A DNA stretch of 64,000 nucleotides from Novosphingobium barchaimii LL02 (GTDB taxonomy: Bacteria > Pseudomonadota > Alphaproteobacteria > Sphingomonadales > Sphingomonadaceae). Position 1 is the stretch's first letter. Each line of letters starts with the position of its first letter. Below, in pieces: positions 29,702-44,053 of the stretch. Below the pieces are notes generated by a model. It made no database searches, was not told the origin of the DNA, and saw nothing but the letters and a program-made list of their open reading frames with translations. The DNA lies in assembly GCF_001046635.1 (NCBI RefSeq), contig NZ_KQ130454.1, forward strand, positions 728,501 to 792,500, given 5' to 3'. The translations under genes and the position numbers were made by a program.

Positions 29702-29785
29702 GCGGGCGTGGCGGAATGGTAGACGCTGCGGACTTAAAATCCGCTTGGGTATCCAGTGCGGGTTCGAGTCCCGCCGCCCGCACCA
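29702..29785 (+). tRNA. tRNA-Leu (anticodon UAA), CCA encoded
   Basis: An 84-base cloverleaf. Acceptor arms GCGGGCG (29702-29708) and CGCCCGC (29775-29781) pair fully, the discriminator is A and CCA is encoded at 29783-29785. The anticodon stem GCGGA/TCCGC encloses CTTAAAA, giving anticodon TAA (Leu UUA). The T-arm GCGGGTTCGAGTCCCGC and a long variable arm confirm a class II tRNA. Confidence 0.97.
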
Positions 29786-39021: not shown

Positions 39022-40359
39022 ATGAGCGCCAAGGTCATCCATTTTCCGTCCCGCCCCTCGCGGCTTGCCTTGCGGCTCGAATGGTTTGCTACCGACAAAT
39101 CGGTGCTGCTGGGCATCTGGGCGCTCTATTTCGCACTGCGAGCGGCGGTGCTGCTGATCGACGTGGCGCCTACTTCCGATGCCGAGTGGTACTATGCCCG
39201 CGCCGCGAGCCTTGCGGCGGGGCTGGGCTATCTCGACAATTCCGGCGCGCCCACCGCGTTCTGGCCCGCCGGCTGGCCGATCGCGCTGGGCCTCACCTTC
39301 TCGCGGTTCGGCACCTCGCTGGTGACGCTGGGGCTGTTCAACCTGGTCAGCGCGATGCTGATCGGGGTGACCACGCTGGCGCTGGGGCGGCGGCTGTTCG
39401 GTTCGGAAGGCGCCGCGCGGGCCGGACTGTTGATGCTGGCGGTCTATCCCAATGCCATCGGCTACGTGCCGCTGGCGCTAACCGAGGTGTTCTACACAGC
39501 TCTGCTGATGGCCGGGTGCTGGGTGGTGGTGACGCGCACCAACCGCTGGCAGCTTGTCAGCGCGGGCCTGCTGTTCGGCTTCGCCACGCTGGTGAAGGCG
39601 CAGACGCTGGTGGTGGTGCCCCTGCTGTTCGCGATCGACTGGCTGCGGATGGGCCAGGTCTGGCAGCGCCTGCCGCGCCTGCTGACCGAGGGCCTGATGG
39701 TGCTTGGCATCGCCGTGCTGACGGTGCTGCCCTGGACGATCCGCAACGAGGTGCAACTGGGCCACTGGATCGCGGTTTCGACCAACGGCGGCTATACCCT
39801 GCTCACGGGCAACCACGACACCGCCACCGGCGACTACACGCCGGGCGCCCCGGTGGTGAAGGAACTCATGGCCCGCCCCGGCCTGAACGAAGTGACCCGC
39901 GATGCCGAAGCCGGGCGGCTGGGCATTGCCTGGATCACGCAGAATCCGGACCGTTTCCTGGCGCTCGCCCCGAAGAAGCTGGCGCGCCTGTGGCTGCCCG
40001 ACGGCGAGGCCGAGTGGGCCTATCAGGGCGGCGCGCCGGGTTATGCGCGCTTCGAGATCGTCTACCGCGCGGTGCGTGTGCTCAACCAAGGCTATTACGC
40101 AGCGCTGATGCTGACCTTTGCCGCCGCATTCTTCGTGATGATCGCGCGCCGCCGCCGCGACGGCCAGCGCTGGATCGGCTGGTGGCTGCTGCCTTACGGG
40201 ATCGCGCTCTATCCGACGCTGATCTGCTTGGGGTTTTCGGGCCAGTCGCGCTTTCACTATCCAGTGATGCCCTGGGTCTGCATCACCGCCGGCTGGCTGG
40301 TGATGACCGCGCTGGGCCGTCTGGGCGAACGGACGGCTCTGAAACCGACGTTGCACTGA
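39022..40359 (+). CDS. GT-C membrane glycosyltransferase (PMT/ArnT-like, GT39)
   Basis: 445 aa protein with about 10-12 hydrophobic spans. The first external loop has the catalytic acidic motif APTSDAEWYYARA, the position used by GT39/GT83 enzymes that transfer sugars from polyprenyl-phosphate donors to proteins, lipids or glycans. Later parts (ALTEVFYTALLMAGCW, TLVKAQTLVVVPLLFAIDW) are typical of this fold. It stands alone with a long upstream gap holding an inverted repeat. Acceptor unknown. Confidence 0.82.
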   Translation: MSAKVIHFPSRPSRLALRLEWFATDKSVLLGIWALYFALRAAVLLIDVAPTSDAEWYYARAASLAAGLGYLDNSGAPTAFWPAGWPIALGLTFSRFGTSLVTLGLFNLVSAMLIGVTTLALGRRLFGSEGAARAGLLMLAVYPNAIGYVPLALTEVFYTALLMAGCWVVVTRTNRWQLVSAGLLFGFATLVKAQTLVVVPLLFAIDWLRMGQVWQRLPRLLTEGLMVLGIAVLTVLPWTIRNEVQLGHWIAVSTNGGYTLLTGNHDTATGDYTPGAPVVKELMARPGLNEVTRDAEAGRLGIAWITQNPDRFLALAPKKLARLWLPDGEAEWAYQGGAPGYARFEIVYRAVRVLNQGYYAALMLTFAAAFFVMIARRRRDGQRWIGWWLLPYGIALYPTLICLGFSGQSRFHYPVMPWVCITAGWLVMTALGRLGERTALKPTLH

Positions 40360-40375
40360 CGCGCGCGCCGCCCAG

Positions 40376-40567
40376 CTAGTCCCTCTGAAAGATATCCTCG
40401 ATCGCCATCCCGAACAGGTCGGCAATGCGGAACGCAAGCGGTAGCGAGGGATCGTAGCGCCCCGTCTCGATCGCATTGACGCTCTGGCGGGACACTTCCA
40501 GCCGCGTCGCCAGATCCTGCTGGCTCCAGCCGCGCTCGGCGCGCAGAACCTTGAGGCGGTTGTTCAC
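40376..40567 (-). CDS. Small XRE-type transcriptional regulator
   Basis: 63 aa Cro/CI-type helix-turn-helix protein, essentially only the DNA-binding domain: LKVLRAERGWSQQDLATRLE then VSRQSVNAIETGRYDPSLPL. It starts with GTG at 40567, forming a GTGA overlap with the stop of the membrane-protein gene upstream. This small-XRE plus small-membrane-protein pair is a known recurring arrangement. It may bind the palindrome at 41049-41067 upstream of the pair. Confidence 0.87.
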   Translation of the reverse strand: MNNRLKVLRAERGWSQQDLATRLEVSRQSVNAIETGRYDPSLPLAFRIADLFGMAIEDIFQRD

Positions 40568-40986
40568 AAACCTTGCCCGCCGCCTTGCGAAAAGCGATTG
40601 ACCACCACCCCCACGAACAGCCCCAGTGCCCAAAGCGGGAAGACCAGGAACACCGGCATCCGGGGCACGAACGGCGAAAACAGTTCCAGAATGCCCCAGA
40701 CGCTGCACACCGCCAGGGTCACGCCCGTCGCGACGAGGAATTTGCGCACTTCGAGCATGCGCAGATATTCGTCCTGAAGTTCGACCAGCAGCCTGCCCAT
40801 CGCCCAGATCCAGCCCAGCACCGCGAAACCGGGCAGTAGCGCAAGGCCAACCGTGGTCGCGCTGGCCGGCGCATTGTCCGGCACCAGCCGCGTCGCCAGC
40901 GCGATAGCGGCCACGTAAAGCACGCTTAGCGGCAGCATACGCTTTGCGTAGCGCAGGTAAGCGGGGTTCTTCGGCGGCGAGGCCAT
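40564..40986 (-). CDS. Small four-span membrane protein, partner of the XRE regulator
   Basis: 140 aa from ATG 40986, which has a good Shine-Dalgarno (caggag) 9 bases upstream; an in-frame ATG at 41028 is also possible. Four hydrophobic segments are visible (LPLSVLYVAAIALAT, VGLALLPGFAVLGWIWAMG, FLVATGVTLAVCSVWGILEL, PVFLVFPLWALGLFVGVVVN). Function unknown. Translational coupling to the XRE gene suggests it is a target or antagonist of that regulator. Confidence 0.75.
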   Translation of the reverse strand: MASPPKNPAYLRYAKRMLPLSVLYVAAIALATRLVPDNAPASATTVGLALLPGFAVLGWIWAMGRLLVELQDEYLRMLEVRKFLVATGVTLAVCSVWGILELFSPFVPRMPVFLVFPLWALGLFVGVVVNRFSQGGGQGL

Positions 40987-41048
40987 GGCTGCGATCTCCT
41001 GTTCCTTGATGTAAAGCCAGCTTGTCATTACACTCCACTTAAGTCAAG

Positions 41049-41067
41049 TTTCATTGACATAATGAAA
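41049..41067. promoter_or_regulatory. Perfect inverted repeat TTTCATT-gacat-AATGAAA, candidate XRE operator
   Basis: Seven-base perfect arms around a 5-base centre, upstream of the membrane-protein/XRE pair and pointing away from the thr leader. The 12-bp centre-to-centre geometry suits a dimeric helix-turn-helix protein. The most likely binder is the XRE protein encoded at 40376 (autoregulation); inference. Confidence 0.4.
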
Positions 41068-41141
41068 AGCAACCTTGTCCCATGGGGTCAGGGAGGACAA
41101 ACCTCGACTTATCGCCGCCGAATCGCTACATCGCCCGCACC

Positions 41142-41216
41142 ATGACGCGCCTGCGCACACTTGCGACCACTACCACCACCACCCGGCTCGTCCGGGCACG
41201 GTCGGTCGCGGCTTAA
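41142..41216 (+). CDS. Threonine-rich leader peptide of thrS
   Basis: A 24-codon frame starting MTRLRTLATTTTTTRL and ending ...VAA-stop. It has eight Thr codons, six of them consecutive (41166-41183). That run is the hallmark of ribosome-mediated attenuators such as the thr operon leader. It lies 171 bases before the thrS ATG on the same strand. Its ribosome site is weak and the frame is far too short to stand out by length; the argument rests on the Thr run, its place before thrS and the alternative hairpins that follow. Confidence 0.7.
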   Translation: MTRLRTLATTTTTTRLVRARSVAA

Positions 41217-41274
41217 GGCAAGCGATCACCGTCGCCCGGGCATTTCGGGCGAGACGGCGTCTCTCTGCCCGAAA
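41182..41274 (+). promoter_or_regulatory. Alternative hairpins of a probable thrS attenuator
   Basis: Five segments can pair in mutually exclusive ways. 1:2 is CCCGG (41182-41186) with CCGGG (41192-41196), right after the Thr codons. 2:3 is CCGGGC..GGT (41192-41202) with ACC..GCCCGG (41228-41239). 3:4 is TCGCCCG (41232-41238) with CGGGCGA (41246-41252). 4:5 is TTTCGGGC-GAGAC (41243-41255) with GTCTC and GCCCGAAA (41259-41274). No T-run follows, so termination would be Rho-dependent or the switch acts on translation; the direction of control is not certain. Confidence 0.55.
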
Positions 41275-41387
41275 CGAAGCTATTTAACAGGCGCCGCCGC
41301 TTCACCCTTGCGCGTGCCTGTGCCATGGCGCGCAAAGACCGCCCAGATGCTCCAGTTCGGCATTGGGCAAACGAGAGACGAGCTTTC

Positions 41388-43382
41388 ATGTCCCAGATGT
41401 TCAAGATCAGCCTGCCCGACGGTTCGGTGCGCGAGATGCCCGAGGGGTCCACCCCCGCCGACGTCGCCGCCGCCATCGGCCCGGGCCTCGCCAAGGCGGC
41501 GCTTGCCGCGAAGATCGACGGCGAGCTGGTCGACCTGACCCGTCCCTTCACGGGCGACGCCAGCCTCGCCCTCGTCACCAGCCGCGACGAGGCCGAAGCG
41601 CTCGAGCTGGCCCGGCACGATTTCGCCCACATCCTGGCCGAAGCCGTGCAGGCGCTGTTCCCCGGCACGCAGATCACCTTCGGCCCTTCGACCGATGATG
41701 GCTTCTACTATGACTTCGCACCGGCAGACCGCCCCTTCACCGACGACGACCTGCCCGCGATCGAGGCGGAGATGCGCAAGATCATCGCCGCCGACAAGCC
41801 GCTGCGCCGCGAAGTGTGGGACCGTGAGCAGCTCATCAGCCGCTGGAAGCAGCAGGGTGAAAGCTTCAAGGCCGAATGGGCCGCCGAACTTCCCGGCGAC
41901 GAGCCGCTGACCGTCTACTGGTCGGGCGAAGACTGGCTCGACATGTGCCGCGGCCCGCACCTGCCCTCCACCGGCAAGCTGGACCCGGCCGCGTTCAAGC
42001 TGACCCGCGTGTCCGGCGCCTACTGGCGCGGCGACCAGAAGAACGCGATGCTTTCGCGTATCTACGGCACCGGCTGGCTGAACAAGAAGCAGCTTTCCGC
42101 TCACCTGACGCGTCTGGAAGAAGCCGCCAAGCGCGACCACCGCAAGCTGGGCAATGAGATGGACCTTTTCCACCTCCAGCACGAAGCGCATGGTTCGGTC
42201 TTCTGGCACCCCAAGGGCTACGTGATTTACCGCGCGCTGGAAGACTACATGCGCCGCGCCATCAGCGCAGCCGACTGCAAGGAAGTGAAAACCCCGCAGG
42301 TCATGGACGCCCGGCAGTGGGAGCAGTCCGGCCACTGGGGCAAGTACCGCGAGAACATGTTCGTCATCCCCGACGAAGTGCCCAACACCGAGGACGAAGG
42401 CCCGATCATCTCGGACGATGCCGAGTGGATGGCGCTCAAGCCGATGAACTGCCCGGCCCACGTGCTGATCTTCAAGCAAGGCATCAAGTCCTACCGCGAC
42501 CTGCCGCTGCGCATCGTCGAGAACGGCTGCTGCCACCGCAACGAACCGCACGGCGCGCTGCACGGCCTGATGCGCGTGCGCCAGTTCACGCAGGACGATG
42601 GCCACATCTTCTGCCGCGAAGACCAGATTGTCGGCGAAGTGCAGGCGTTCTGCGAAATGGCCGACAAGGTCTACCGCGATTTCGGCTTCACCTATTCGAT
42701 CAAGCTGGCGCTGCGCCCCGACAACCGCATCGGCACCGACGAGCAGTGGGACAAGGCCGAGGCCGAACTGCGCGACGCCGTGGAGCGGGCCGGCCTCGCA
42801 ACGCCCGAATACGGTTGGGAAGAACTCCCCGGCGAAGGCGCGTTCTATGCCCCCAAGCTGGAATGGCACCTGACCGACGCAATCGGCCGCACCTGGCAGG
42901 TCGGCACGATCCAGTCCGACCGCATGCTGCCCGAGCGCCTGGATGCACACTACATCGGCGAGGACGGCGCCCGCCACCGCCCGGTCATGCTGCACCGCGC
43001 GATCTTCGGATCGTACGAACGCTTCATCGGCATCCTGATCGAACATTTCGCCGGCAAACTGCCGGTGTGGCTCGCCCCGGTGCAGGCCGTGGTCGCCACG
43101 ATCGTGTCCGACGCCGACGACTATGCGGGTGAAGTCACCGCGAAGCTGAAGGCAGCGGGCATCCGCGTCGAGACGGACGTGCGCAACGAGAAGATCAACT
43201 ACAAGGTGCGTGAGCACTCACTGAAGAAGATCCCGCACCTCCTCGTTGTCGGCAAGCGCGAGGCCGAGGAAGGCACCGTCGCCCTGCGCACGCTGGGCGC
43301 CGAGCATCAGAAGGTCATGACGCTGGACGAGGCTATCGCCCTGCTGAAAGCCGAAGCGACCGCACCGGATCTGGTCGCATGA
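41388..43382 (+). CDS. thrS: Threonyl-tRNA synthetase
   Basis: 664 aa class II synthetase. TGS domain at residues about 1-65. The editing domain (about 66-245) shows [12 protein letters not shown] (HxxxH) and DMCRGPH, the C/H pair of the Thr-tRNA proofreading site. The catalytic core contains MNCPAH and [19 protein letters not shown] (motif 2), and the C-terminal anticodon domain ends near [14 protein letters not shown] Thr-rich leader and hairpins precede it. Its last 4 bases (ATGA) overlap the next gene. Confidence 0.97.
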
Positions 43383-44053
43383 TCCAGCGCGAACTCCTCG
43401 ACACCGCATGGATCCCCGACGGCGAGAAGATGGAACTCTTCCGCCACGACAAGGACTTCATGGTCGTGATCGGCCACAACGAGCTGATGAGCACCCGCAA
43501 GTGGGGGTCCGAAGAAGCTCTGGCGACGATGGCCTATGACCGGATCAGGAACGCCAAGCGCCCGCACGTCCTGATCGGTGGCTACGGCATGGGCTTCACC
43601 CTGCGCGCCGCGCTTCGGGTGCTGCCGGAAAACGCCCTAGTCACCGTGGTCGAGCTGGTGCCGGAGATCATCGCATGGGCACGTGGCCCGATGGCGCACC
43701 TGACGGAAAACCACCTCGAAGACCCCCGTGTCAGGCTGGTGATGGGCGATGTCGCCCACGTCATCGAGGAAGGGCACGGCGACTATGACGCCATCCTGCT
43801 CGACGTCGACAACGGACCTGACGGGCTGGTGCGCGAAGACAACAACGTCATCTACTCGAAGGTCGGCCTGCGTAACGCCAAACGCGCACTGACCCCGGAC
43901 GGCGTGCTGGCGATCTGGTCTGCCGGAGCGGACCCGGTGTTCAAGCGGCGGCTGGAGAAGGCCGGGCTGGCTGTGGATGAAGTAAAGGTTCACGCGCGCA
44001 GCAACGGCAAGGGTGCCAAGCACACGATCTGGTTTTCTACGAAGAGCGAGTAG
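43379..44053 (+). CDS. Spermidine-synthase-like class I methyltransferase-fold protein
   Basis: 224 aa Rossmann-fold protein of the spermidine-synthase-like group without the N-terminal tetramerisation domain. [17 protein letters not shown] is the nucleotide-binding loop (GxGxG variant), [13 protein letters not shown] the acidic second strand, and [17 protein letters not shown] the third. Substrate unknown; not enough to call it SpeE. ATGA overlap with thrS indicates coupling, an unusual partner that may be positional only. Confidence 0.82.

Follow-up and report, generated by a model that had tools for sequence, protein, structure and literature searches.

Control of synthetase genes within the 5' UTR is known from Escherichia coli, where pheST is preceded by a leader peptide with Phe codons and a terminator, and where ThrRS represses its own gene, thrS, by binding to a translational operator in the 5' UTR, while in Firmicutes T-boxes are used for thrS. 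In gammaproteobacteria, the threonine operon leader (Rfam Thr_leader, RF00506) controls thrABC through a Thr-rich peptide, alternative hairpins and an intrinsic terminator. A comparative study of the attenuation of synthetase operons was reportedly published by Lopatovskaya and co-workers in 2010 and may hold an earlier prediction. The element described here lies upstream of thrS in a 64,000-nucleotide stretch of the genome of Novosphingobium barchaimii LL02, the whole of which is called the window. It resembles Thr_leader in its Thr-rich peptide and alternative hairpins and differs in target gene and terminator; with pheST and E. coli thrS it would share the control of a synthetase gene in the 5' UTR, but it has Thr codons in place of the Phe codons and terminator of pheST and of the ThrRS binding at E. 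coli thrS, and it lacks a U-tract.

A leaderless attenuator, thrL-thrS, with a Thr leader before thrS and no clear terminator, has been reported for Streptomyces lividans TK24 (PMC8079986). A Thr-containing leader peptide before thrS and a hairpin without a U-rich stretch are common to both systems, as is, probably, the leaderless start, but S. lividans is an Actinobacterium, its peptide of 18 aa has only two Thr, and the passages of that paper devoted to thrL-thrS describe one hairpin and no covarying set of helices (PMC8079986). Homology of the two seems unlikely; the sphingomonad element is a better supported variant of a kind of Thr leader already published for S. lividans. Among alphaproteobacteria, trpL (rnTrpL) of Sinorhizobium meliloti is, in the sections that treat it, described with the frame at the 5' end of the mRNA and with two exclusive structures chosen by ribosome stalling, as is predicted here, but with Trp codons, a biosynthetic gene and a terminator, in contrast to the Thr codons, the synthetase gene and the absence of a U-tract here (PMC7298713; PMC10117765). 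Sinorhizobium SEP5, compared by its description only, is also a small alphaproteobacterial 5' UTR frame in which six Thr codons are clustered, but contains three Lys codons in addition and lies upstream of an aspartate dehydrogenase gene (PMC10117765). The initial annotation of this DNA had stated that the arrangement is without an established description for alphaproteobacterial thrS. As worded this stands: among the matches listed, no alphaproteobacterial thrS attenuator was found in the titles and opening lines of abstracts of open-licence PMC papers, and the term thrS is absent from the main text of two papers on attenuation (PMC4833913; PMC2965389). Beyond alphaproteobacteria it does not stand, as the S. 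lividans system is published (PMC8079986).

The thrS locus

The following features of the locus, all on the forward strand, are referred to throughout (window coordinates).

41104..41132, + strand: putative promoter P1, read by eye (-35 TCGACT at 41104-41109, 17-nt spacer, -10 TACATC at 41127-41132)
41142..41216, + strand: leader peptide frame of 24 codons, no evident Shine-Dalgarno sequence (open reading frame, relatives)
41166..41183, + strand: run of six Thr codons, ACC ACT ACC ACC ACC ACC (sequence)
41301..41329, + strand: conserved box pair, candidate internal promoter P2 (TTCACC at 41301-41306, 17 nt, CATGGC at 41324-41329; spacing, relatives)
41373..41382, + strand: Shine-Dalgarno region of thrS, GAGAGACGAG (read from the sequence)
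41388..43382, + strand: thrS, threonyl-tRNA synthetase, 664 aa (open reading frame, Pfam domains)

The thrS product contains TGS, tRNA_SAD, class II core and HGTP anticodon domains (Pfam), the four expected of the enzyme. The leader frame, translating as MTRLRTLATTTTTTRLVRARSVAA followed by the stop codon, holds eight Thr among its 24 codons, six of them in a row, and its stop is separated from the thrS ATG by 171 nt, just as the initial annotation had described it. Scans of positions 40000-43500 and of the whole window with Rfam 15 returned no match for the element: in 40000-43500, up to E=5, there was only a chance match on the opposite strand inside thrS (E=3.9), and neither Thr_leader nor the T-box covariance model matched in this region up to E=5 or in the whole window at the gathering score, where a tRNA gene at 29702-29782 was the sole match.

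On the other side of P1, a divergent frame (40376-41038, - strand) has a C-terminal part that resembles XRE/HipB-like helix-turn-helix families, with all hits under the curated cut-offs. Between this frame and P1 lies the stretch TTAAGTCAAGTTTCATTGACATAATG (41040-41065), and similar stretches, TCAAG...CATTGACAT or CATTGTCAT, are found upstream in some relatives (L005, L010, L016); possibly the stretch is an operator of the divergent gene.

Occurrence in the Sphingomonadaceae

The window sequence alone folds modestly better than its shuffles (z -1.9; 8/200 shuffles equally good), and as this gives little statistical support, relatives were needed. The thrS gene is present in 61/61 genomes close to that of the window. 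In a scan of the upstream DNA of thrS at 37 loci of the same genus and 13 of other families, a Thr run with a similar C-terminus occurred at 20 same-genus loci and was missing from the other 17 and from all 13 other-family loci. A covariance model, R1, built on an alignment (A1) of the window and 20 relatives, matched 145/397 genomes of the GTDB family, one match each save for one genome with two weak ones. Among the 130 of 146 matches that were fetched (16 were left out), thrS follows directly in 120, three of these being weak and without a Thr run; seven have a gene and then thrS, and three weak ones neither. The loci L174, L175 and L179 (thrS, no Thr run, weak matches) were dropped from all alignments, L167, L171 and L173 were left out of the analyses of 131 loci for their poor leaders, and L060 was dropped as a duplicate. 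Thinning of alignment A2 at 88% identity left 120 sequences, to which four of the seven loci with an intervening gene were added.

The window itself gives a single strong match, at the place described. A second model, R2, of 124 sequences and restricted to the core, matches 144/396 genomes of the order, all within the same family, and 6/385 genomes of the class. Four of these six belong to the family; the other two (G703, G688), from other families, are weak matches that lack thrS and were taken as chance. Named genomes were covered by a pattern scan of at least 118 loci, of which, among the matches listed, 25 score 83-123 bits with R2 (next best 23.5), 25/25 standing beside thrS and 24/25 having a Thr run by pattern. 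The names among the matches listed are Novosphingobium, Qipengyuania, Altererythrobacter, Parerythrobacter, Tsuneonella, Aurantiacibacter, Croceicoccus and Pacificimonas, and further Erythrobacter or Erythrobacteraceae MAGs and one Sphingomonas sp. The element is thus widespread in Sphingomonadaceae and is not reliably found outside the family, in searches that over more than 40 genomes used strict filters, so that a genome without a match may still carry it. In a tree of 30 same-genus thrS genes presence is the parsimonious root state with seven changes, and the element is therefore dispensable.

In seven genomes (L181-L187, e.g. L181:187-693) a gene of 163-168 codons, taken to be that of an RNase AS-like 3'-5' exoribonuclease, stands between the element and thrS, with segment E (see below) shortly upstream of its start codon. 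The one product tested is weakly similar over its first 60 residues to 3'-5' exoribonucleases including Rv2179c (E 0.003-0.009) and has no Pfam or NCBIfam hit.

Leader peptide and start of transcription

In 131/131 loci an in-frame ATG is found no more than 90 nt from where the Thr run ends, giving leaders with a median of 23 aa and 7 Thr, a Thr fraction of 0.30 over all residues and, in 114/131 loci, a run of at least four Thr. The C-terminus is rather constant (approximately RGRxVA), while the N-terminal half and the number of Thr vary. A short frame rich in codons for the regulated amino acid, as is typical of attenuators, is consequently present, and its translation is predicted. Compared with thrS, codon usage in the leader has moved towards ACC and ACT: the 131 leaders contain 478 ACC, 206 ACT, 175 ACG and 44 ACA (ACC and ACT 684/903), versus 790 ACC, 75 ACT, 643 ACG and 53 ACA in the parts of thrS that were read (865/1561). 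ACC and ACT are the codons that tRNA-Thr(GGU) would read.

With respect to transcription, P1 of the window has by eye 7/12 matches to TTGACA/TATAAT and was not listed by a consensus scan requiring 9/12; its -10 is 9 nt from the ATG, and the predicted start, at about 41139, is 0-3 nt ahead of the leader ATG. The alphaproteobacterial -10 form, GCTANAWC, is visible in the window as GCTACATC. Of the 131 loci, 73 have an upstream promoter scoring at least 8/12, a score that 2.3% of shuffles reach; in 50 of these 73, 6-7 nt separate the end of the -10 from the leader ATG. Over the 131 loci, the 16S tail pairs with a mean energy of -0.13 kcal/mol upstream of the leader as compared with -3.55 upstream of thrS, and the purine measure of the Shine-Dalgarno region is 0.41 for the leader versus 0.76 for thrS; this contrast is an effect of composition, because Shine-Dalgarno-like tetramers are scarce at both (9/131 and 19/131) and pairing at thrS is no better than for its own shuffles (-4.13). 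The promoter position and the missing Shine-Dalgarno sequence of the leader fit a transcript that would begin at the leader ATG or in its immediate vicinity, and the leader mRNA is thus probably leaderless, like Sinorhizobium trpL.

Competing helices and their covariation

Behind the Thr run, six segments were delimited, which can pair in alternative ways.

41192..41201, + strand: segment A (1), partner B; paired-column counts, energy with own partner
41229..41239, + strand: segment B (2), partner A or C; paired-column counts, energy with own partner
41243..41252, + strand: segment C (3), partner B or C'; paired-column counts, covariation
41256..41261, + strand: segment D, within the C:C' loop, partner E; counts, one covarying column pair
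41268..41274, + strand: segment C' (4), partner C; paired-column counts, covariation
41290..41295, + strand: segment E (5), partner D; counts, energy with own partner

Segment B is common to A:B and B:C, and C to B:C and C:C'; C:C' and D:E cross and can therefore coexist only as a pseudoknot. The mutually exclusive pairable segments of the initial annotation (1:2, 2:3, 3:4 and 4:5, named with no coordinates and equated with these helices by reading) thus exist as A:B, B:C, C:C' and D:E.

In the 124 aligned sequences, B:C with D:E is 94.0% paired and shows 89 two-sided changes against a shuffled mean of 25.6, and A:B with C:C' is 92.0% paired with 63 such changes against 16.1. In the control, with partners slid by 1-3 columns, 32-55% were paired; for A:B with C:C', the number of pairs changed on both sides was higher after slides of +1 and +2 (11 and 10 versus 9), though that of such cells was lower. 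When 134 aligned sequences were scanned unguided, C:C', D:E, B:C and A:B had the four highest summed covariations, and the three top-scoring column pairs fall in C:C' (73-102, 75-100) and B:C (67-80), unmatched in 60 alignments of a tree null. This null was simulated along the tree at rates matched to the data (the mean number of parsimony changes being 21.6 in the data and 21.9 in the simulation); it replaced a first, overdispersed tree null, which scored above the real data and under which the best real pair had E=2.6 and none was significant. Over all 16471 column pairs, E is 0.017 for pair 88-120 of D:E; for A:B the best pair has E=0.22, ranking below the columns 91-121, which form no base pair and score E=0.13.

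Pairing energies of own versus permuted partners separate all four helices (A:B z -9.5, B:C -8.6, C:C' -13.5, D:E -15.0), with control pairings outside the model at z -0.8 (A:C'), +2.8 (A:E) and -2.4 (D:B). The longest ungapped helix of own versus other species barely separates A:B (5.90 versus 5.84); that this version fails is because A:B holds an internal loop, and the energy version does separate it. At a base of B shared by A:B and B:C, seven C-to-T changes on the tree were accompanied once by a change of the A partner and never by one of the C partner. The RNA segments 3' of the leader stop codon are also strongly conserved. A hairpin of the last leader codons with the bases after the stop codon was rejected (own versus other-species helix means 4.39 and 4.32).

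Within these alignments, all four helices are backed by compensatory change, A:B being the weakest, so that competing helices of the kind that define an attenuator are kept in the family. The initial annotation had named a Thr run or stems that are not conserved among related genomes as speaking against its reading; with the run kept in most loci and the helices covarying, the reading withstood this comparison.

Folding with a ribosome on the leader

The effect of a translating ribosome was modelled by placing a ribosome at the leader stop codon or on the last Thr codon, masking the RNA as far as that ribosome and folding what follows up to E, in imitation of an RNA still being transcribed. 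With a 9-nt footprint and the ribosome at the stop codon, helix probability exceeds 0.5 for B:C in 111/131, D:E in 92/131 and C:C' in 6/131 loci; with the ribosome stalled, it does so for A:B in 63/131, C:C' in 73/131, B:C in 37/131 and D:E in 16/131. For the window the respective values are B:C 0.85 and D:E 0.87 at the stop codon, and A:B 1.0, C:C' 0.94 and D:E 0 when stalled. A 6-nt footprint gives a similar result, while one of 12 nt blurs the switch (stalled, A:B 9/131; in the window about 0.5 for each of the stalled forms), and B begins at a median of 9 nt past the leader stop, near the edge of a ribosome waiting there. Folds that take in thrS leave D:E weak whatever the ribosome position (mean 0.22 and 0.19 for the two), and in them the window at the stop codon favours C:C' (0.72) over B:C (0.02). 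In RNA ending at C' the window at the stop codon likewise favours C:C' (0.82), so that in the window B:C would win only after E is made; both folds imply that the model needs D:E to be formed during transcription. In this modelling, with footprints of 6 or 9 nt and RNA made as far as E, the position of the ribosome may pick the helix.

The region between segment E and thrS

Downstream of E, the starts of the boxes CTTY and TNTGCCA are 18 or 19 nt apart in 132/135 motif-bearing loci, in a search of 170 loci (less four repeats) that admitted distances from 14 to 23. The box pair is retained in 6/17 same-genus loci that lack the leader, and a similar pair, TTGCCT-N17/18-CATA, precedes thrS in 7/7 loci with an intervening gene. 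Near-fixed spacing, a variable spacer and no consistent stem suit a promoter better than an RNA operator, and the box pair is probably an internal promoter, P2. A narrow exact pattern of the box pair, which would miss the copy in the window, is found in 3/21 genomes, and thrS accounts for two of its three sites; as it is this rare, there is no sign of a common promoter type. In same-genus loci without the leader (L015, L020, L026, L028, L033, L036, L050) a -10-like GCTAAGGGC is by eye often seen shortly before the thrS ATG, and several of these also have a -35 of the TTGAG type, as if thrS were leaderless there.

Two roles for a 3' hairpin in this region were considered and rejected: as a terminator, since single sequences fold there (88/135 better than shuffles by more than 1 sd) but the stem is inconsistent when aligned on the box and the spacing is nearly fixed; and as a tRNA mimic, since variants of the loop letters break the mimic of the UGU anticodon.

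No terminator-like site was found on the + strand between 40950 and 41500, and in the window no run of U stands behind the helices, in agreement with the missing T-run of the initial annotation. In 4/131 loci the 15 nt that follow E contain a stretch of eight bases with five T, and TTTTT occurs between the leader stop and thrS in 6/131. A GC stem with a U-tract terminator as the last alternative, as in the classical attenuator, is absent, and having no intrinsic terminator the element is not filed under that type.

Proposed mechanism and alternatives

The conserved Thr run and the covarying helices support what the initial annotation had proposed, that thrS expression is adjusted to the supply of threonyl-tRNA by a ribosome-mediated attenuator, a reading to which we assign a probability of about 0.7. 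Transcription would begin at or next to the leader ATG, with a ribosome loading on the leaderless mRNA. When Thr-tRNA is plentiful, the ribosome would reach the stop codon and cover A, so that B:C pairs and D is free for E, the presumed OFF form; when it is short, the ribosome would stall in the Thr run just before A, A:B and C:C' would form, and D, held in the loop of C:C', could not pair with E, the presumed ON form. Both the sensing of charged tRNA-Thr and the assignment of ON and OFF are what we infer from this arrangement. D:E, probably together with Rho, which is proposed because no U-tract follows D:E, would lower read-through into thrS, while P2 further downstream would probably supply basal thrS expression outside the control of the leader.

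The output is the part on which the same sensor allows two readings. Rare T-rich stretches, no terminator-like site and equal access to the thrS Shine-Dalgarno sequence favour factor-dependent transcription termination, e.g. by Rho, near D:E, for which the odds appear a little better than even. It is rather unlikely that the D:E form instead affects the translation of the thrS mRNA or its stability, although this would equally fit the missing U-tract, and although in loci of the exoribonuclease type E lies just before a start codon whose Shine-Dalgarno sequence is in 4/7 less accessible with the ribosome at the stop codon than when stalled. In the window, 41373-41380, within the thrS Shine-Dalgarno region, can pair with 41258-41265 (and 41377-41383 with 41186-41192), but the former pairing does not appear among the 25 helices that the covariation scan listed, accessibility at thrS is the same in both states over the 131 loci (mean difference -0.003; more than 0.1 up in 10 and down in 13), and E is far upstream of thrS with the probable P2 in between. 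Sequestration of the Shine-Dalgarno sequence as the output at thrS is thus not supported by the covariation scan or by the accessibility.

Two further explanations would dispense with the switch as sensor, and both are very improbable. The leader peptide might act in trans with RNA pairing secondary, for which peTrpL of S. meliloti is a precedent (PMC7298713, in the part concerning the peptide) and with which the rather constant C-terminus would agree; the RGR part is, however, encoded by segment A and itself constrained by pairing, the N-terminal half is variable, as is the number of Thr, and conservation extends to the RNA behind the stop codon. Alternatively, the Thr run might be incidental and ThrRS might bind the RNA and repress itself. 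Such autoregulation exists at E. coli thrS and the TNTGCCA box is conserved before thrS, but the Thr run is kept together with the switch, and the spacing and missing stem of the box pair fit a promoter better.

Returning to the ribosome-mediated attenuator, we tentatively suggest, with somewhat less than even confidence, a family-wide synthetase attenuator free of a terminator, in which D:E, governed by a chain of three competing helices, would signal that the leader has been finished and would be read by Rho or another factor, the mRNA would be leaderless, P2 would keep the essential thrS on irrespective of the switch, and the unit could also drive another first gene, an RNase AS-like one, placed ahead of thrS.

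Biological significance

If this reading is true, some alphaproteobacteria would gauge threonyl-tRNA by a leader peptide at thrS. The element provides a well-delimited covarying RNA as a testbed for attenuation without a U-tract in named species, e.g. of Novosphingobium and Qipengyuania, and its repeated losses within one genus allow natural comparisons.
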